A stretch of 6,481 bases of DNA from an uncultured Flavobacteriales bacterium (GTDB lineage: Bacteria > Bacteroidota > Bacteroidia > Flavobacteriales > Crocinitomicaceae): contig CAMPIU010000179.1 of NCBI GenBank assembly GCA_946886545.1, forward strand, positions 1 to 6,481, read 5' to 3'. A program made the translations under genes and the position numbers. Below are positions 3 through 6,481 of the stretch, piece after piece. The notes below the pieces were generated by a model. That model was not told the origin of the DNA, made no database searches, and saw only the letters and a list, made by a program, of their open reading frames with translations. Each line of letters opens with the position of its first letter. Positions within the stretch are counted from its first letter, which is position 1.

Positions 3-74
3 AAAATGCCGCTTCACGAAACATTACTTCCACCTGGAAATTACATGCACATTAATTCATTTGATGAAATATAA
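3..74 (+). CDS. Possible C-terminal end of a convergent gene (5' end outside window)
   Basis: In the third plus-strand frame the first 24 codons are open and end in TAA at 72-74, reading ...LPPGNYMHINSFDEI. The stop lies directly at the foot of a strong hairpin that would serve as this gene's terminator as well as that of the minus-strand operon. This convergent arrangement is the main reason to favour a plus-strand gene here. The fragment is too short to assign a family. The other two plus frames are also open for a while. On the minus strand an ATG at 24, preceded by AGGTGG, could instead start a gene running off the left edge, so confidence is low. Confidence 0.35.
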   Translation, partial: KMPLHETLLPPGNYMHINSFDEI

Positions 75-115
75 AATAAGTAGGGGGCGAAAATTTTTCG
101 CCCCCTACTTATTTT
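73..115. terminator. Strong bidirectional intrinsic terminator
   Basis: Bases 73-92 and 96-115 form a perfect 20-bp stem with a 3-base loop (93-95). The stem core is GTAGGGGGCG paired with CGCCCCCTAC, flanked by A- and T-rich ends, so the transcript ends in a U-rich tract in either direction. It starts 3 bases after the stop codon of the 444-aa gene on the minus strand. On the plus strand it begins at the stop codon of the candidate convergent gene. Confidence 0.87.
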
Positions 116-117
116 GG

Positions 118-1452
118 TCAATTCAATCTGATTTTCAGCATCAATTGCAATCTGCTGTTTCTGTCAAAGGTATTATTGAATGTATTGTTTTTGGTAATAT
201 CTGTGAATCCGAAATGATACAAGGCATGAGCCGACATGAATCTGCTGAATTGAAACGAATATCCAAGCGAAGCAGAAAAATTGAAGCGATTGAAAGTACT
301 GTAATACAATTTGCTGTTGGTTCTGCTGTTGTTCTCGGAAGTGTAGTTCTGAATTTCATAACGTTCTCCAGGATCGGTCAGTAAGTATTCTATTCCCAAA
401 CCTGCTGTTAATTGGTGCTTTGGAGCCAATTGAAAACTCATTTGAGGAAGAAAGCTCACATAATTTAAGGTCGTTTTATTCAGAATGGTAGTCGTGTTAT
501 CTGAATTTGTGGTGTCGCCAACTTTTCGCTTATAAGATATCCTGGAAATGGAATGGTATTCCAAACCCGCTCCGACAGTAAATTTCGGGTTGATCCGGTA
601 ATTATAGGAAACCCCGATAGATTCTCTGAATGTCACACGGTTTTGTAATTCCTTCATTCCAAACAAAGTATTCACTCCCAGATTGATATACACATAATGT
701 TTGCGAAAGTCAGTATTCGCTTGATGAGGAGGGTTCGGTACCGTGATCAAATAGCGGGTTGTGTCTCCCGGAAAAGCCAAATATGCCGGTCTTGCCGGTA
801 AAACTGTCAGATCGGATTGTAACAAGGAGTCACGGATTGTTTTTCCGGTTAATTTATCCTGAGAGTTATCAGGATTCGGATTTGTTCCCTGTGTACCTTC
901 TTGTTTCACTGCAATATGTTCAGATTCATACGGATTAGCTTGGTCGGAAGCAGCAGGAATGAAAGTTGACCTTTTGTACTTTTTCGTTTTATTTTTGGTG
1001 AACTGACTTCTCGTTTTACCTTTTTGATTTGATACAATGCTTTTTGAAGCAGATGTGATTTTACTTTCAGCATTATTTTTTACGGATTTTTCATCGCCTG
1101 CATAGGTTTTTTTTACAGCGTTTGTTTCCGCAGATTGTTCCTTGTTTCCCTTAGCCTTTGTTGAAATTGTCGAAGCAGTTTGTGTATTCGGCTTTGTGCT
1201 GCCTGAAACCTTGTTTTCGGCCAATGGATGTTTAATGTCAGTATCTGAAGGAACTCCATTCGTGAAGAAGTAAATTCCGGTCAACATGAGAGCAGCAAAA
1301 CCTGTAGATGAAAAAATCCACCAAATCAACAAACGACGTTTGCGTTTTTGTTTCTCTGCATCATACATTGCAAAGGCATCCTGCATGTAACTTTCGTTGA
1401 ATTCCAATCCTTCCGGAATCGGATAATCTTCTGTGTTGTTAAAATCTTTCAT
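118..1452 (-). CDS. Trans-envelope protein: inner-membrane anchor plus C-terminal beta-barrel, candidate anti-sigma factor
   Basis: This 444-aa protein is last in the operon, 8 bases after the sigma gene; TAAGGTGAACG before its ATG gives a good ribosome-binding site overlapping the sigma stop codon. Residues 1-40 are polar and end in KRKRR (36-40), followed by one hydrophobic helix at about 41-63. The positive-inside rule puts the N-terminus in the cytoplasm. Residues about 66-250 are a low-complexity Ser/Thr/Lys/Asn-rich linker, long enough to cross the periplasm. Residues about 253-444 show alternating amphipathic strands (YVYINLGVNTLFGM, FTVGAGLEYHSISR, HQLTAGLGIEYLL, FNFSASLGYSFQF) typical of a small outer-membrane barrel of perhaps eight strands. 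It has no cleavable signal peptide. Position after an ECF sigma gene and this topology suggest an anti-sigma that couples an outer-membrane sensor to the sigma factor. I see no recognised anti-sigma domain (FecR, zinc-binding), and the 40-residue tail is short for one, so the role is inference. Barrel and single helix: fairly sure; function: moderate. Confidence 0.72.
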   Translation of the reverse strand: MKDFNNTEDYPIPEGLEFNESYMQDAFAMYDAEKQKRKRRLLIWWIFSSTGFAALMLTGIYFFTNGVPSDTDIKHPLAENKVSGSTKPNTQTASTISTKAKGNKEQSAETNAVKKTYAGDEKSVKNNAESKITSASKSIVSNQKGKTRSQFTKNKTKKYKRSTFIPAASDQANPYESEHIAVKQEGTQGTNPNPDNSQDKLTGKTIRDSLLQSDLTVLPARPAYLAFPGDTTRYLITVPNPPHQANTDFRKHYVYINLGVNTLFGMKELQNRVTFRESIGVSYNYRINPKFTVGAGLEYHSISRISYKRKVGDTTNSDNTTTILNKTTLNYVSFLPQMSFQLAPKHQLTAGLGIEYLLTDPGERYEIQNYTSENNSRTNSKLYYSTFNRFNFSASLGYSFQFSRFMSAHALYHFGFTDITKNNTFNNTFDRNSRLQLMLKIRLN

Positions 1453-1460
1453 CGTTCACC

Positions 1461-1997
1461 TTAATTGAGGTCTAACATTTTTCGCAATTTCTTCTTAGCA
1501 TCTGAATAGTGCCACATGCTGGTATTTTCATTTATATCCAGTAAACTGGCAATTTCATGATGCTTATAGCCGTCAATAGCATATAAATTGAATACGCTTT
1601 TGGTCATTGGTGGCAAGAGGTTTGCTTTCTCCCGGATCAGTTCAATTCGTTCCTGCAGCAATTCATCCACTTCAGTATCCCAGGAGGTCTGGGAGTATTG
1701 GGTAATATCTTCAATCGGCATAACACGTTCTCTTTCGCGTTTTTCCTTTTTCAGTTCATTCAAAATGGTATTGATTAATACCCGCTTTGCCCAATAATCA
1801 AAGGGATTCTCAGGATTGTATTGTTTTAAATTGAGTAAGATGTTCACAAAACCCAAATTGAAATAGTGAACGGCCTGTTCTTTTCCATTCGCATAGCGAT
1901 AAGCTGTACCGATAAATTTGGCATAGCATTGTTTATAGAATAGTTCCTGCGCCCTTCTATCTTCTTTAATACAACGTTTTATCAATTCGCTTTCCAA
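1461..1997 (-). CDS. ECF-type RNA polymerase sigma factor (sigma-70 family)
   Basis: The 178-aa product has the two-domain size of an ECF sigma factor. Region 2 covers roughly residues 1-90 and includes FDYWAKRVLINTILNELKKEKR, the usual FxxWxxxIxxNxxxxxxR pattern that contacts core polymerase and the -10 element. A variable linker (about 91-125) leads to region 4 at about 127-176. There LPPMTKSVFNLYAIDGYKHHEIASLL is followed by a helix-turn-helix with INENTS and DAKKKLRKML, the usual 'EIA..L.I.enT...ARkkL' form. The start is TTG at 1997: a TAA lies in frame 15 bases upstream, no ATG lies between, and the first in-frame ATG is residue 93. It follows the 232-aa barrel gene by 22 bases and precedes the membrane protein by 8, so the three form an operon. 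It probably directs transcription from the shared 30-bp element found upstream of its own operon and two neighbours (inference). The weak start may keep its level low. Confidence 0.87.
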   Translation of the reverse strand: MESELIKRCIKEDRRAQELFYKQCYAKFIGTAYRYANGKEQAVHYFNLGFVNILLNLKQYNPENPFDYWAKRVLINTILNELKKEKRERERVMPIEDITQYSQTSWDTEVDELLQERIELIREKANLLPPMTKSVFNLYAIDGYKHHEIASLLDINENTSMWHYSDAKKKLRKMLDLN

Positions 1998-2019: not shown

Positions 2020-2718
2020 TTAAAATTTAGCTGTTAAACCGATCGATAAAAATGGTCCGCCAAGTCCCACTTCGGTGAGTAAACTCATGTTTTCACTGAA
2101 GTTGTAGCGCAAACCATAGCATAGCCGGCTGGCAATAGGGAAACCACGCGAAAGATCAAAGCCAGAGTCAGCTGGTAACCCATCCTGGTTTTCTTCTCTA
2201 AACTTATTAAACTTCAGATTGATACCAAATGCGGTGTAGAAATAAGTATTCACTTTAGGACGATCAACAAAAAAATGACGGGTGTAAACTACTTGAAAAC
2301 GAAAACGGTTCATGCTGTAAAATATCCCGTTGCTGGAAACATCATAGCTTGAAGAAGTACTGTTCCAGGTAGAATCTATTCGTGTACCTGATGCACGATA
2401 ACCGTTGTAGGTGGCCATGAAACCAATGCTGTTTTTTTGATCCCATTTGTAATCAAAACGTAAGAATAAGGGTTTGATTTTTACATCTGTTACAACGATA
2501 TCTGTTTGAGAAGAATGAATGTTGTTAATGGAATCAATGGTGTAATACGTCGTTACTTCCTGATTAGGACTGTAGAAATAACTGACCAATCCATATCCGG
2601 CGGAAAGGTTGAATTTTTTAAAGGTGCTGTCAGCTACCTGTGCGCAAGTAATTAGCGGTAAAAGTAAGCCGGTTAAGAGTGTGAATTTCCGAAGCGAATG
2701 CTGTTGTCTTGTTTTCAT
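2020..2718 (-). CDS. Outer-membrane beta-barrel protein (first gene of sigma operon)
   Basis: The 232-aa product starts with a basic n-region and a hydrophobic core (FTLLTGLLLPLIT), with probable signal peptidase I cleavage near TCA|Q at residues 25-27. LITC is not a good lipobox because Thr precedes the Cys. The rest is a run of alternating amphipathic strands with polar loops, ending in Phe as expected for BAM-inserted barrels. The last 40 residues align without gaps to those of the 208-aa barrel next door (16 of 40 identical by eye), including FP at 193, GLRY at 202-205 and EVGLGGPFLSIG at 216-227, so the two are paralogues. It is the first gene of the operon with the sigma factor and the trans-envelope protein, under promoter element 2750-2779. 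Ligand and exact role are unknown. It could be a target of the regulon or a partner or sensor for the 444-aa barrel protein. Confidence 0.83.
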   Translation of the reverse strand: MKTRQQHSLRKFTLLTGLLLPLITCAQVADSTFKKFNLSAGYGLVSYFYSPNQEVTTYYTIDSINNIHSSQTDIVVTDVKIKPLFLRFDYKWDQKNSIGFMATYNGYRASGTRIDSTWNSTSSSYDVSSNGIFYSMNRFRFQVVYTRHFFVDRPKVNTYFYTAFGINLKFNKFREENQDGLPADSGFDLSRGFPIASRLCYGLRYNFSENMSLLTEVGLGGPFLSIGLTAKF

Positions 2719-2749: not shown

Positions 2750-2779
2750 TAAACAATTGTCAAATCAAAAACCTTTGGT
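2750..2779 (-). promoter_or_regulatory. Shared 30-bp promoter element (copy 1, sigma operon)
   Basis: Read on the minus strand it is ACCAAAGGTTTTT, 8 bases, then AATTGTTTA. It ends 31 bases before the ATG at 2718. It matches the copies at 3519-3548 and 4651-4680 in both blocks with identical spacing. No TAnnTTTG housekeeping box lies between it and the ATG. The second block (GTTTA/GTCTA) could serve as an ECF -10 element and the first as -35 (inference). Confidence 0.7.
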
Positions 2780-2796
2780 CAAAAAGTGTTTTTTAT

Positions 2797-2831
2797 AAAA
2801 AAATAATTCCGCCAAATTTACAGCGGAATTA
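2797..2831 (-). terminator. Intrinsic terminator of the 208-aa barrel gene
   Basis: TAATTCCGC (2823-2831 on the minus strand) pairs with GCGGAATTA (2804-2812) as a 9-bp stem with a 10-base loop. Seven Ts follow on the minus strand (2803 to 2797). It lies about 30 bases past the stop codon at 2862 and separates this gene from the sigma operon promoter. Confidence 0.87.
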
Positions 2832-2861
2832 GTTGATATTAAAATCGGTAAAGAGGAAAGC

Positions 2862-3488
2862 TTAGAATCGGTAGTGAAAACCGACATTTAATAGAGGTCC
2901 GCCGATTCCCAGCTCAGCATTTACGCCAAAATGTTTGGCAAAAGAATAACGCAATCCTGCATACGTTCTCAATGAAACCGGGAAATACAGATTAAATGGG
3001 TATTCATCCCTGGAAGTCAATTCTCCATTGATGAGCAATTTTCTTGTTTGATTATTGATACCAATACCTCCTCCCAGGTACACATCTAAATTCGGATTGG
3101 AAATAGGGAAGTGATAAGCCAGACGTATTTGTGTTTTAAAGCGATTGATAATGTATTCGGCATCACTTTGTGTCCCGCTGCTATCTGTCATTGTTCCGGT
3201 AGATCTTCTTTGCAGGTAGTAAAAATCAATTCCTAAACTAAACCCCGGATTCAGTAAATGATCGTACCGAAGACCAAAAGTTCCCAGGTTATTAAATCGG
3301 TTGAATTCAAATTGATCCTGATCGCTGTTGGTAGTTGATAAAGTATGAAGATTTAAAGTCGTTTTCGGACCGTAAGAAACTTCGAGGTAGTTCTTCATCT
3401 TTGGAGCTTGTTCCTGTGCAGATGAAAATGTCGTGCTTAGTAAAATAATTGTTGCAAGGGTGCCTGTTTTTTCGATTATTCTTTTCAT
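2862..3488 (-). CDS. Outer-membrane beta-barrel protein, paralogue of the 232-aa barrel
   Basis: The 208-aa product begins MKRIIEKTGTLATIILLSTTFSSA, a signal peptide with likely cleavage after Ala24. Amphipathic strands follow (YLEVSYGPKTTLNLHTL, FGLRYDHLL, FSLGIDFYYLQRR, IRLAYHFPI, LDVYLGGGIGINN) and the protein ends in Phe. The tail FP...R...GLRY.F...E.G.GGP.L..G...F is shared without gaps with the 232-aa protein. The reading frame is open further upstream to 3923, but that stretch overlaps the end of the T9SS gene, crosses its terminator and promoter element 3519-3548, and is not protein-like. ATG 3488, directly before the signal peptide, is therefore the start. It is a single-gene unit bounded by terminators at 3691-3716 and 2797-2831. 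Molecular role unknown. Confidence 0.83.
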   Translation of the reverse strand: MKRIIEKTGTLATIILLSTTFSSAQEQAPKMKNYLEVSYGPKTTLNLHTLSTTNSDQDQFEFNRFNNLGTFGLRYDHLLNPGFSLGIDFYYLQRRSTGTMTDSSGTQSDAEYIINRFKTQIRLAYHFPISNPNLDVYLGGGIGINNQTRKLLINGELTSRDEYPFNLYFPVSLRTYAGLRYSFAKHFGVNAELGIGGPLLNVGFHYRF

Positions 3489-3518
3489 GATGTTTAATTT
3501 TTTATTGGTTCTGTTTAT

Positions 3519-3548
3519 TAGACAATTTTCAAGGCAAAATCCTTGGGT
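3519..3548 (-). promoter_or_regulatory. Shared 30-bp promoter element (copy 2, 208-aa barrel)
   Basis: On the minus strand it reads ACCCAAGGATTTT, 8 bases, then AATTGTCTA, ending 30 bases before ATG 3488. It differs from copy 1 at three of the 22 block positions, with the same 8-base spacing. It is the main sign that this gene is co-regulated with the sigma operon. No TAnnTTTG box is visible nearby. Confidence 0.7.
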
Positions 3549-3622
3549 TGAAATGAAGAAAAAAGTCTTTTTTTTAGGTAGAATATGAAAAAAGGTTATT
3601 CTTTTAATAAAGTTTATTGAAG

Positions 3623-3650
3623 GCTTTGCGCTCTTCGTGAAGGCACAGAG
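3623..3650. repeat. Intergenic repeat-like stretch, copy a
   Basis: GCTTTGCGCTCTTCG at 3623-3637 matches GCTTTGTGATCTTCG at 4738-4752 at 13 of 15 positions, and both are followed by a CRCAGAG. Such CTTTG/TCTTCG-rich stretches recur between genes in many Bacteroidota (general recollection). Only two copies are visible here, so the repeat call is tentative. Confidence 0.35.
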
Positions 3651-3690
3651 AATTCTCAGAATCATTCTATGAATTCTAGCACAAGAGATT

Positions 3691-3716
3691 AAAAAAAAAG
3701 TCCGCTTTTGCGGACT
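3691..3716 (-). terminator. Intrinsic terminator of the T9SS-sorted protein gene
   Basis: On the minus strand AGTCCGC (3716-3710), loop AAAA, GCGGACT (3705-3699) is followed by a run of eight to nine Ts ending at 3691. It lies about 28 bases past the stop codon at 3745 and isolates this gene from the downstream 208-aa barrel gene. Confidence 0.92.
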
Positions 3717-3744
3717 CTTCAACAGTAAAGCAGGGGTGACTAAC

Positions 3745-4626
3745 TTATTGCTTGATGAATTTTTGTTGTTGGGAACTACCGTTTTCAAAGACAATCGTGC
3801 AATAATAAATTCCGTTTGAAAAAGCTGCTGTTTCCACCTGGTAATTGAATTGATCTGCATGTGTTTCAAAAACAGTTCTGCCATTTGGATCTGTAATGCG
3901 AATCTGTTGCATCGGTAGGTCACTTTGAATGTGAAGTCCCGTTGTGGCAGGATTCGGTGCCAGTTTGAAAGAGGAACTGATTTCTTCTAATCCGGCAGAA
4001 GTATTGAAAACGAAACCCAAATCATCAATGAATAATTGGTTCCCGGCGCCGGATCCATTAGCGGAATTGCCAATGTAAACCTGGATGGTATCCGGATTAC
4101 CACTTTCCATATAAGTAATCGGTATACTGAAACGAACGTAGCTTGAAGAGACATTTCCCTGATAATCGGCAATACCAATTGTTTCTGTACTTTGTGTTCC
4201 GGCATCCCATTTCGTTGAACTGAATTGCAATTGAAACGGTTCATTCCCGGTTGAAATTAATTTGTACCAGCCGATCAGAGAATCGGGGCGCTGAGTGAAA
4301 GCAGCTCCCATTGTTCCTGTTCCGCTCATCAGATCTACATTTCCCAGCATGATAATTCCGGGCAGGGTATCCATTTCACCGTCTCCGCCCATATCGCTTA
4401 CACTTGTTACCAGTTTTAAAGCATAATTACCCGAATGAGCATCTGTTGATTTAAGAGCGGTTTCAGAGGCTCCGGCCATAGTCATAATGTTCATTCCGGA
4501 CCAGTTTTGAGGATCTTCATAAAAGGTATAATCTACCCAGGTTTCAAATCCGCCGTTTGGAATTGATTGCGCGTTTGCAAAAGATGTTGCGCCTAATAAT
4601 GCAAGTAATAAGAAATGTTTTTTCAT
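3745..4626 (-). CDS. Secreted protein with PCMD-like domain and T9SS type A sorting domain
   Basis: The 293-aa product has a clear signal peptide (MKKHFLLLALLGATSFANAQ, cleavage near residue 19/20). Residues about 21-208 resemble the PCMD family (putative carbohydrate-metabolism domain) of Bacteroidota surface proteins: NGGFETW at 24-30, FTQRPDSLIGWYK at 110-122, PDTIQVYIGNSANGSG at about 178-193 and FIDDLGF at 199-205. Residues about 220-293 are a type IX secretion sorting domain: KLAPNPATTG at 221-230, then DPNGR, NGIYYCTI and a C-terminal KFIKQ. The protein should pass the inner membrane by Sec and the outer membrane by T9SS, then be anchored or released. It forms a monocistronic unit with its own terminator and a copy of the shared promoter element. 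Substrate is unknown. The T9SS tail is confident; PCMD is by motif memory only. Confidence 0.85.
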   Translation of the reverse strand: MKKHFLLLALLGATSFANAQSIPNGGFETWVDYTFYEDPQNWSGMNIMTMAGASETALKSTDAHSGNYALKLVTSVSDMGGDGEMDTLPGIIMLGNVDLMSGTGTMGAAFTQRPDSLIGWYKLISTGNEPFQLQFSSTKWDAGTQSTETIGIADYQGNVSSSYVRFSIPITYMESGNPDTIQVYIGNSANGSGAGNQLFIDDLGFVFNTSAGLEEISSSFKLAPNPATTGLHIQSDLPMQQIRITDPNGRTVFETHADQFNYQVETAAFSNGIYYCTIVFENGSSQQQKFIKQ

Positions 4627-4650
4627 CGTTTTTTCTTTTGATTTACACTA

Positions 4651-4680
4651 CAGACAATTTCCTGCGAAAAAACCTTTGGT
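4651..4680 (-). promoter_or_regulatory. Shared 30-bp promoter element (copy 3, T9SS-sorted protein)
   Basis: On the minus strand it reads ACCAAAGGTTTTT, 8 bases, then AATTGTCTG, ending 24 bases before ATG 4626. The first block is identical over 13 bases to copy 1, although the downstream genes are unrelated. This argues for a shared regulator rather than recent duplication of the whole region. Confidence 0.7.
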
Positions 4681-4817: not shown

Positions 4818-5078
4818 TTACTTCTTCTTTTTGATTTTCCAGCTTCCGTACAATTCACTGATCCCTTCAACCAAACGGTGATCGCGTTTAGTAATTTTCT
4901 GCTGATCGTGCGAATAAACCGAAATACTCAATTCACAGCAATGCCTGATCGTCAAATCCGGATGATGATCCATTTGATCTGCTAATTTTGCCACTTCGAC
5001 CAGGAAGAGTGCAAGTTCCGTTTGATTTGCGAATTTGATGACAGTTCTAAATCGATTCGCTATGATGCTCCAATTCAT
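4818..5078 (-). CDS. phhB: Pterin-4a-carbinolamine dehydratase
   Basis: This enzyme dehydrates the 4a-hydroxytetrahydropterin released by aromatic amino acid hydroxylases, allowing the cofactor to be re-reduced. The 86-aa product carries the family signature DHHPD at 37-41 and a third histidine in YSHD (His57). His38, His39 and His57 correspond to the three active-site histidines of the family. The usual aromatic residue after HHPxxxxx is replaced by His46, and the stretch to His57 is one residue longer than usual, so it is a somewhat divergent, short member. The C-terminus is very basic (KIKKKK). ATG 5078 lies inside phhA and the genes overlap by 32 bases, which points to translational coupling and equal production. 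The neighbour is its expected functional partner, which strengthens the call. Confidence 0.86.
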   Translation of the reverse strand: MNWSIIANRFRTVIKFANQTELALFLVEVAKLADQMDHHPDLTIRHCCELSISVYSHDQQKITKRDHRLVEGISELYGSWKIKKKK

Positions 5079-5790
5079 GAGAGTATAATTTATTAAGTGT
5101 TTCTATTGCTTTTTTTAATTGTGAGATGTCTTCAATCACAAAGTATTTCTGCTGGATCTCACTCGTACAAAAATCCGTTTGAAGAATGGTCTCCAGGTTG
5201 AAATCCGGATGGATCGCTTCCCTCGTTGAAATACTAGAAATCGATTCATGAAAAGAGGAAATGATCCCCGCTCCAAAAATGCGCAGTTTGTTCTCTTCGG
5301 AAATCAGCCCGAACTCAATGGTAAACCAATACAGACGCTGTAATTCCTGCAAGATACGCGAATCATAATTGAATCGCTTACCCAACATTCCGAATGCATG
5401 TACAAATTCCGAGTAGGCCGCATTACAAAGCAAGGGAATGTGTCCGAAAATATCATGGAACATATCCGGTTCTTCCAGGTAATCCAGTTTCTCTTTTGAA
5501 CGCAGCCAAGTAGATGATGGAAATTTCTTTTCCGCCAGCAGATCGAAAAAATCTTCAACCCCGATCAAACCGGGTACGCAATAAATTTCCCAGCCGGTAT
5601 TCTTTTTGAACCAATGATTGATGCGCTCGAAGTTGGGTAATTCCATTGGATTCAGGACATCCTTCATTCTTTCCAATGATTCCAGGTAATCGGAGCATGC
5701 TTTCTGTTTCAGGTTGTTCACTTGCCGCTCAAATAATAGCGACCATACAGCCAGATCTTCCCTTGTGTACTTTTCAAATTCTTGTTGCAT
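5047..5790 (-). CDS. phhA: Phenylalanine 4-monooxygenase
   Basis: PhhA converts L-phenylalanine to L-tyrosine with O2 and a tetrahydropterin at a non-heme iron. From ATG 5790 the protein has 247 residues, normal for the single-domain bacterial enzyme, which lacks the N-terminal ACT domain of animal enzymes. The iron ligands are visible: PDMFHDIFGH gives His112 and His117, and YWFTIEFGLI gives Glu159. CVPGLIGVEDFF, LRIFGAGIISS and the Ser-rich segment after it are further family landmarks. The frame is open upstream to a TTG at 5934, but that extension runs through the terminator hairpin at 5808-5840 and the leader ORF in another frame, and adds nothing resembling the family. ATG 5790, 17 bases past the T-run, is therefore preferred. 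Expression is probably set by the upstream Tyr-codon attenuator. phhB follows with overlap. Confidence 0.93.
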   Translation of the reverse strand: MQQEFEKYTREDLAVWSLLFERQVNNLKQKACSDYLESLERMKDVLNPMELPNFERINHWFKKNTGWEIYCVPGLIGVEDFFDLLAEKKFPSSTWLRSKEKLDYLEEPDMFHDIFGHIPLLCNAAYSEFVHAFGMLGKRFNYDSRILQELQRLYWFTIEFGLISEENKLRIFGAGIISSFHESISSISTREAIHPDFNLETILQTDFCTSEIQQKYFVIEDISQLKKAIETLNKLYSHELEHHSESI

Positions 5791-5927: not shown

Positions 5928-5931
5928 GAGA

Positions 5932-5963
5932 CAAATGTAAGGAAATGTTTTATACGCAACAAA
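5932..5963 (-). promoter_or_regulatory. Housekeeping-type promoter of the phhA leader
   Basis: On the minus strand TTTG (5963-5960), 20 bases, then TACATTTG (5939-5932) matches the Bacteroidota consensus TTTG / TAnnTTTG with accepted spacing; a second TTG at 5959-5957 gives a 17-base spacing. Transcription should begin only a few bases past 5932, near or at the leader ATG at 5927. Confidence 0.72.
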
Positions 5964-5984: not shown

Positions 5985-6481
5985 TTATTTAGAAATCGCT
6001 TTTATTATTCTGTTTTCATCAATCAATACATCTCTTAAGAGAACATGTGGAAATACGGTATGTTTTGATTGTAATTTGAATCCTTCCAGAATTTTAAGTA
6101 AAGAACTCGCTGTAATTAAGGATAAATGAATTTCACTAGTCGACAGATCTGAATCACATTCCGAAATAAACTGGTCTGAAAAATCAGGAGCCACAAGTAA
6201 TGTTTTCACCACACGATGACCCAGGGATTCAGCAACATTTTTATATGATTTTATTTGTCTGGAAACACTTGAGAATTTATTATAACCCGATTCTTTTTGT
6301 GTTTTACATTCAACAATTATAATATCGTTATTTCCAACATTGATTAGGATATCCATTACATCCTTTGAGGTATTGATTTTCTTCTTTAAATCATCATCGA
6401 TGGATAATCCCAATTGAGTGAATATTAATTTGGTGACTTCTTCAAACTTAAGACCAAGGTCAGCTTCTTTTAATAAAAGCC
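5985..6481 (-). CDS. PD-(D/E)xK restriction-endonuclease-like protein, C-terminal part (start outside window)
   Basis: The frame is open from the right edge to TAA at 5985, giving 164 visible residues. The visible N-terminal part has LGLKFEEVTKLIFTQLG, the helix that opens Mrr-like and RecB-like nuclease folds (FEE, visible residues 12-14). MDILI (Asp43) and IIIVECKT (Glu57, Lys59) then give the D...ExK metal-binding catalytic triad with normal spacing. A second half, TLLVAPDFSDQFISE and a Leu/Ser-rich helix, resembles the remainder of such a fold. A TTG at 6413 could be taken as a start but would remove the FEE helix, so the gene is read as entering from outside. Possible roles are DNA cleavage in restriction, defence or repair; without the N-terminal half no specific family can be named. 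It is not in the phhA operon, which has its own promoter. Confidence 0.7.
   Translation of the reverse strand, partial: LLLKEADLGLKFEEVTKLIFTQLGLSIDDDLKKKINTSKDVMDILINVGNNDIIIVECKTQKESGYNKFSSVSRQIKSYKNVAESLGHRVVKTLLVAPDFSDQFISECDSDLSTSEIHLSLITASSLLKILEGFKLQSKHTVFPHVLLRDVLIDENRIIKAISK

Follow-up and report, generated by a model that had tools for sequence, protein, structure and literature searches.

How can a sigma factor, two related barrel proteins and an exported protein, encoded in three neighbouring transcription units, come to share one upstream sequence, and which regulator would read it? The question is raised by a stretch of 6,481 nucleotides (the window, analysed here at its whole length) from an uncultured Flavobacteriales bacterium (assembly GCA_946886545.1, contig CAMPIU010000179.1), in which a two-block element of 30 bp recurs in front of three units, one of them encoding an extracytoplasmic function (ECF) sigma factor at 1461–1997. 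The answer that we favour, with a probability of about 0.85 and on the basis of sequence comparison, is that the element would be the cognate promoter of this sigma factor, and the locus an autoregulated module of the Das/Dma type with a sigma held by a Dma-like protein and a small local regulon. A preliminary description of the window had proposed autoregulation, with two barrels and a protein exported by the type IX secretion system (T9SS) making up a local regulon, and comparison supports this proposal, with the element at all three units in 7/7 genomes. That description regarded a direct link between the element and this sigma as not shown; the link is now supported by conservation and by covariation between the recognition helix of the sigma and the −35 block.

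A two-block element in front of three transcription units

The element follows the pattern ACCMAAGGWTTTT-N8-AATTGTYTR, and a pattern scan of the window gave exact matches at the following positions, each heading its own minus-strand transcription unit:

4651..4680, minus strand: candidate promoter element copy 3, ACCAAAGGTTTTT-N8-AATTGTCTG, 24 bases upstream of the ATG at 4626, with orthologous copies
3519..3548, minus strand: candidate promoter element copy 2, ACCCAAGGATTTT-N8-AATTGTCTA, 30 bases upstream of the ATG at 3488, with orthologous copies
2750..2779, minus strand: candidate promoter element copy 1, ACCAAAGGTTTTT-N8-AATTGTTTA, 31 bases upstream of the ATG at 2718, at the head of the sigma operon, with orthologous copies

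The three positions with their N8 spacer, the 18/22 block positions identical in all copies and the 24 to 31 bases before an ATG had been reported earlier, and each was recovered as reported. No further match with three mismatches or fewer occurs in the window, while 200 shuffles gave 0.01 matches on average and none with three, and the shared element is real. Two conserved blocks at a fixed spacing upstream of start codons, as found here, are what characterizes ECF-dependent promoters, and the 3′ block presumably resembles the −10 region of such promoters.

The absence of a nearby TAnnTTTG box had also been reported earlier; such boxes are at chance level in the window (7 found vs 7.75 expected), and one match (2813–2820, minus strand) lies inside the terminator-like hairpin 2804–2831 upstream of copy 1. 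Housekeeping promoters were considered and set aside, with both TAnnTTTG and sigma-70-like matches occurring only at chance level. As well, a search against Rfam gave no match to an RNA element.

That the element might be an operator for a DNA-binding regulator rather than a promoter is very unlikely. The transcription start is placed by prediction, copies 1 and 3 contain a short ACC-AAA-GGT palindrome in their first block (seen by eye), and AATT is palindromic, all of which would suit an operator. However, the 50-base stretches that surround the three copies have no inverted or direct repeat in common, and copy 2 is without the short palindrome; the block spacing is fixed, the copies keep their short distance to the ATGs, the 3′ block is of the presumed −10 kind, and the −35 block covaries with the recognition helix of the sigma, as described below. 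Moreover, no such regulator was found in a Pfam scan of the window genes.

Genes of the three units

The units hold the following genes and associated features:

3745..4626, minus strand: T9SS-exported protein, with Por_Secre_tail and PCMD domain
2862..3488, minus strand: outer-membrane beta-barrel protein (OMP_b-brl), paralogue of 2020..2718, from a Pfam match and comparison
2020..2718, minus strand: barrel protein paralogous to 2862..3488, its gene opening the sigma operon, without a Pfam match of its own
1461..1997, minus strand: ECF sigma factor with regions 2 and 4, from domain matches, TTG start
1515..1517, minus strand: codon of M161, the x of TSxWH in the recognition helix, aligned with K170 of SigW
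118..1452, minus strand: Dma-like protein, with a predicted N-terminal helix including a transmembrane (TM) segment at residues 42–60, a disordered tether of about 170 residues and a C-terminal OmpA-like barrel
3695..3720, minus strand: terminator-like hairpin 3′ of the T9SS gene
2804..2831, minus strand: terminator-like hairpin 3′ of the barrel gene 2862..3488
73..115, minus strand: terminator-like hairpin of 20 pairs 3′ of the Dma-like gene

The sigma operon thus reads, on the minus strand, barrel (2718–2020), ECF sigma (1997–1461) and TM plus barrel protein (1452–118). The sigma passed the TIGR02937 model for sigma70-ECF factors (70.1 bits, cutoff 42.9) and did not pass TIGR02985 (66.3, cutoff 126.4). 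Two assignments of the preliminary description were borne out, namely the T9SS export signal, with Por_Secre_tail at 39.4 bits against a cutoff of 27, and the paralogy of the barrels, which share 29% identity over 148 columns (E 5e-18). Terminator-like hairpins are window-wide not clearly more frequent than in shuffles (6 found, mean 5.0).

Conservation of the element in Fluviicola

In 14 genomes of the genus Fluviicola (genomes and loci are given below by G and L numbers), the element was matched 23 times at two mismatches or fewer, vs 2 matches for the reversed pattern. All 23 matches fall in seven genomes, and the same seven hold the close orthologue of the sigma (E < 1e-90), the other seven having only sigma paralogues near 1e-50; the co-occurrence of element and sigma that the preliminary description had put forward as a check is thus found in 7/7 genomes with the orthologue and 0/7 without. 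The clustering of matches at envelope genes across the genome, put forward there as another check, is not borne out in Fluviicola, as 17/23 matches, and all 14 of those with at most one mismatch, lie inside the sigma locus, and the predicted regulon in Fluviicola is almost wholly local. Nineteen of the 23 sit 11–31 bases before an open reading frame (ORF) of more than 200 residues, while the other four precede a gene remnant (L043), decayed genes with starts like that of the T9SS gene (L047, L057) or no clear gene (L055).

Counted by unit (T9SS gene, second barrel, sigma operon), 21/21 promoters across the seven genomes have the element, weaker copies included; 18/21 have two mismatches or fewer with N8, and the exceptions are an N9 copy in G003 and T9SS copies with three mismatches in G006 and G012. 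Other spacers gave 17 matches for N9 (control 8) and 22 for N7 (control 13) in the seven genomes, all at three mismatches save one N9 match with a single mismatch, at the orthologous barrel promoter of G003; among the three-mismatch N9 matches, one is a known N8 copy matched out of register. We confirmed the T9SS sorting domain in the window and in 6/7 genomes, the gene of G003, which runs off its contig end, having been left out of the domain scan. In G004, the T9SS gene is set apart from the barrel promoter by about 6.6 kb of other DNA and still retains its element, which supports the membership of this gene in the proposed regulon.

Two of the three genes are paralogues, and the element might accordingly be seen as functionless upstream DNA left from a tandem barrel duplication. 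This is hardly credible, as the third gene encodes a T9SS protein of different domain make-up and as the blocks are conserved above their upstream flanks in the three orthologous sets (0.98, 0.90 and 0.90 vs 0.64, 0.54 and 0.52), with the spacer below the blocks in each set (0.78, 0.70 and 0.61); in addition, copies survive rearrangement and occur in distant families.

Alternatively, the element might be the promoter of another ECF sigma of the genome, with the present sigma merely one of its targets, and the 3 to 10 sigma genes per genome that match the profile at E 1e-20 in the 14 genus genomes would offer candidates. This is unlikely, since the element tracks the close orthologue, whereas paralogues occur in 14/14 genomes, and since a diverged element stands upstream of homologues of this sigma in distant genomes. 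Moreover, one paralogue group has a CCAACC...CGTTA site of its own, and in 5/5 genomes the exact form stands upstream of that paralogue and nowhere else. At two mismatches or fewer the CCAACC class is at background in these five genomes (165 matches vs 185 in the reversed control), and therefore no regulon was called and the exact copies alone are informative.

The window belongs to a Fluviicola-like bacterium; of eight loci compared, L001, from a Fluviicola sp. metagenome-assembled genome (MAG), is closest to the window (85% identity, longest alignment 3,582 columns). Locus L004 (CP034120.1) is titled Glaciecola amylolytica THG-3.7 and has a sigma 85% identical with the same surrounding gene order; its label looks wrong because the record carries this Fluviicola locus. 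By eye, some sigma paralogues of the genus genomes are also flanked by a Dma-like gene. Outside the sigma locus, L056 (G006, contig 32) has an element 25 bases before the gene of a 274-residue protein with a signal-peptide-like start, which has no Pfam match and is a possible extra regulon member.

Covariation of the recognition helix with the −35 block

An association between the residue x of the TSxWH helix, in sigma region 4, and the −35 block was first noticed in the first locus set, where K goes with CCAACC, and M, A or Q with CC-N-AAGG/A; by a count made by hand, the AA-to-T distance, taken to the −10 T, is 22 in either class. In a second set of 58 loci, 12 of which repeat earlier sigmas, K loci had AACC-type sites in 10/24 cases (2.0 expected in shuffles) and CCCAAG in 0/24, and M/A/Q loci had AACC in 1/18 and CCCAAG in 9/18 (0.26 expected), although seven of these nine repeat first-set sigmas and two are new (L109 and L111, the latter holding both kinds of site). 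A third set of 44 loci, with three repeats, was gathered after the hypothesis was formed; under a loose rule, K loci had AACC in 14/24 and CCCAAG in 0/24, while CCCAAG was found for H in 2/3 and for Q in 1/6 (L205, which repeats L028), and AACC for Y in 1/1.

Pooling gave 107 loci, after removal of 16 duplicates and 26 TSxWH-lacking loci from 149, and excluded the Fluviicola orthologues (window, L001–L006, L063–L069), whose element lies about 700 bp upstream of the sigma. Loci with K or R had AACC in 40/72 (6.0 expected) and CCCAAG in 0/72, and those with other residues had CCCAAG in 13/35 (0.67 expected) and AACC in 3/35 (3.1 expected), with Fisher p values of 8e-8 and 2e-6 that ignore relatedness. 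In a tree built with x masked, the non-K/R sigmas do not form one clade (approximately unbiased (AU) test, p 1.7e-5, for a group picked after inspection of the first tree, which had one starred pair). Two independent contrasts of residue and −35 block lie on well-supported branches and both agree, with element labels assigned by hand and loose matches included; two contrasts are too few for a sign test to reach significance.

In the profile alignment, x falls on K170 of Bacillus subtilis SigW. The side chain of this lysine makes contact with the guanine opposite C-31 in the GAAACCT −35 (PMC6713349), the authors noting weak density for K170. The aligned residue is thus one that contacts the −35 in SigW, and the two sigmas differ in that x is M and the −35 core AAGG in the window, as against K and AACC in SigW. 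A lysine-free helix beside a −35 with G replacing C fits this structure because K170 contacts that base pair.

A diverged element in distant relatives

Searching once with the sigma alignment retrieved 30 loci, of which 24 are distant (285,916 bp, sigma homologues of 29–56% identity). The relaxed pattern ACCMAAGG-N-TTT-N13-GTYTA, with two mismatches or fewer, has six matches in these 24 loci, all 74–329 bp upstream of the sigma match and on its strand. With a matrix trained on the Fluviicola copies, the site upstream of the sigma is the best of its locus in 10/24 and within the top three in 13/24. The diverged element thus heads sigma operons in distant relatives, which supports the autoregulation proposed earlier. 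In L018 and L019 the best site lies 35 bp upstream of the first gene of the operon, which in L018 carries a T9SS sorting domain; in L015 and L016 it is the gene immediately before the sigma that carries such a domain, and an exact relaxed-pattern match lies upstream of this gene of L015, on a contig the end of which overlaps the L015 start at 97%.

The relaxed pattern matched 26 times across 11 distant genomes, vs 4 times for the reversed control. ECF sigma genes follow six of these matches; five belong to this family, and the sixth (L151) lacks the TSxWH helix. Many of the other matches stand in front of genes whose starts are signal-peptide-like. Among the proteins downstream of the 26 matches, 5/17 scanned carry a T9SS sorting domain (5/10 in a first batch and 0/7 in a second, five of those seven being cut off by the locus end).

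Leaders of 174–299 bases separate element and sigma match in L012, L013, L027 and L028, and no shared ORF is evident in them. The sigmas of L010 and L011, from MAGs titled Chryseobacterium gleum, group with those of other Flavobacteriales MAGs, L008 and L009, and these labels look doubtful.

The Dma-like protein and known systems

The gene 118–1452 starts 8 bases after the sigma gene, the adjacency to an ECF gene that marks the Dma family, and its product has, as modelled, the layout of Dma dual membrane-spanning anti-sigma factors. All 18 aligned proteins have a strongest hydrophobic segment that begins at residues 41–93 (it spans 42–60 in the window protein) and a disordered tether of 115–256 residues, the approximately 170 tether residues of the window protein being rich in disorder-type letters. 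The N-terminal part gave no Pfam domain. AlphaFold2 predicted a helix at 20–65, a predicted local distance difference test (pLDDT) score below 50 for nearly all of 66–246, and mostly confident strands at 252–443, with a mean pLDDT of 57.6 and a predicted template modelling score (pTM) of 0.42 for the whole model. The best PDB fold match by Foldseek was OmpA (E 8.1e-07), with a moderate TM-score of 0.50 by target. OMP_b-brl matches 10/18 members at E 0.01, the window protein falling under the curated cutoff.

The Dma layout is described in PMC13088901, where the partner sigmas are called ECF21. As in that account of Das/Dma, sigma and anti-sigma genes are neighbours, and the anti-sigma consists of an N-terminal domain, one TM helix, a disordered tether and a C-terminal beta-barrel; loss of dma2 is described there as raising das2 and its neighbours and therefore fits autoregulation. 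The window differs in that its sigma operon starts with a separate barrel gene and that its predicted targets are T9SS cargo and barrels rather than nigD1 or polysaccharide utilization loci. In the main text of that paper, "promoter" occurs once, for a complementation vector, and no promoter motif is given under that word. The BcpT-induced pair of Phocaeicola vulgatus, in the parts of PMC9308784 that describe it, likewise has an anti-sigma that is predicted to cross the periplasm and to end in a barrel in the outer membrane, and a small regulon (15 genes changed in the anti-sigma mutant), but its authors tie it to lipopolysaccharide O-antigen length and toxin protection, and no promoter element was found in those parts. 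PorXY-SigP of Porphyromonas gingivalis also ties an ECF sigma factor to the T9SS, whereas its motif, as printed in the relevant part of PMC4800418, is unlike the window element, and the window target is T9SS cargo. PorXY genes are not among the genes identified in the window, and no genome search for them was made. In the literature searched we found no published promoter sequence of a sigma under Dma control, although the founding PNAS 2024 and 2013 EcfO papers may hold one; the same searches brought up no account of the promoter code described here.

Neighbouring genes

Upstream of the T9SS unit lies a gene for a Biopterin_H aromatic amino acid hydroxylase (5047–5790, minus strand), which overlaps the start of a pterin-4a-carbinolamine dehydratase gene (4818–5078, minus strand). 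An ORF cut by the window edge (5985–6479, minus strand) has weak nuclease-like matches, NucS_C and HSDR_N_2 at E 0.05–0.07 and Csx1 and CARF-PDDEXK models at E 2e-4. No phage relatives were found by megablast.

Proposed mechanism and its meaning

If the element is the promoter of this sigma, ACCMAAGG would serve as the −35 and GTYTR as the −10 region, with transcription starting about 8 bases downstream of GTYTR. The Dma-like protein would hold the sigma at the inner membrane, with its C-terminal barrel in the outer membrane, until an outer-membrane signal releases it; the sigma would then transcribe its own operon (barrel, sigma and Dma-like protein) as well as the genes of the paralogous barrel and the T9SS-exported protein. 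What computation shows is the element, its conservation, its co-occurrence with the sigma, the architecture and the covariation of helix and −35; binding, sequestration, signal and start position are steps that we infer.

Several findings weigh against this reading. The co-occurrence of element and sigma in the genus follows one clade, and at three mismatches the matches are near background (36 vs 19 in the control, 10 genomes). No Pfam anti-sigma domain was found in the Dma-like protein. Among the distant loci, 11/24 lack a site of top-three rank within the 350 bp that were scored; four of these are K-type, three (L015, L018, L019) have an operon-head site further up, and four remain. As to the covariation, K locus L215 also fits the strict AAGG pattern, L118, with a TSKSN helix, fits that pattern only, and L022, whose helix is K-type and whose site is AACC, nevertheless also reaches 14.5 with the Fluviicola matrix. 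Furthermore, three element copies have outlived their genes: that of L006 at 5930–5959 precedes no intact gene but an apparent T9SS-gene remnant, and those of L047 and L057 precede decayed N-termini.

Evenly balanced, in our judgement, is the broader proposal that Dma-type trans-envelope sigmas of the Flavobacteriales and Chitinophagales may read a private −35 code, in which the absence of lysine (M/A/Q in one clade, Q/H in another) would have gone with the replacement of AACC by AAGG/AAGA at least twice, giving paralogous systems orthogonal promoters; the AAGG branch would be devoted to surface barrels and T9SS cargo, and would thereby tie a sensor in the outer membrane directly to which proteins are exported. 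Such a code from residue to base would allow targets to be predicted in any genome holding a sigma of this kind, and it makes the orthogonality among the 3 to 10 related sigmas of each Fluviicola-genus genome testable.

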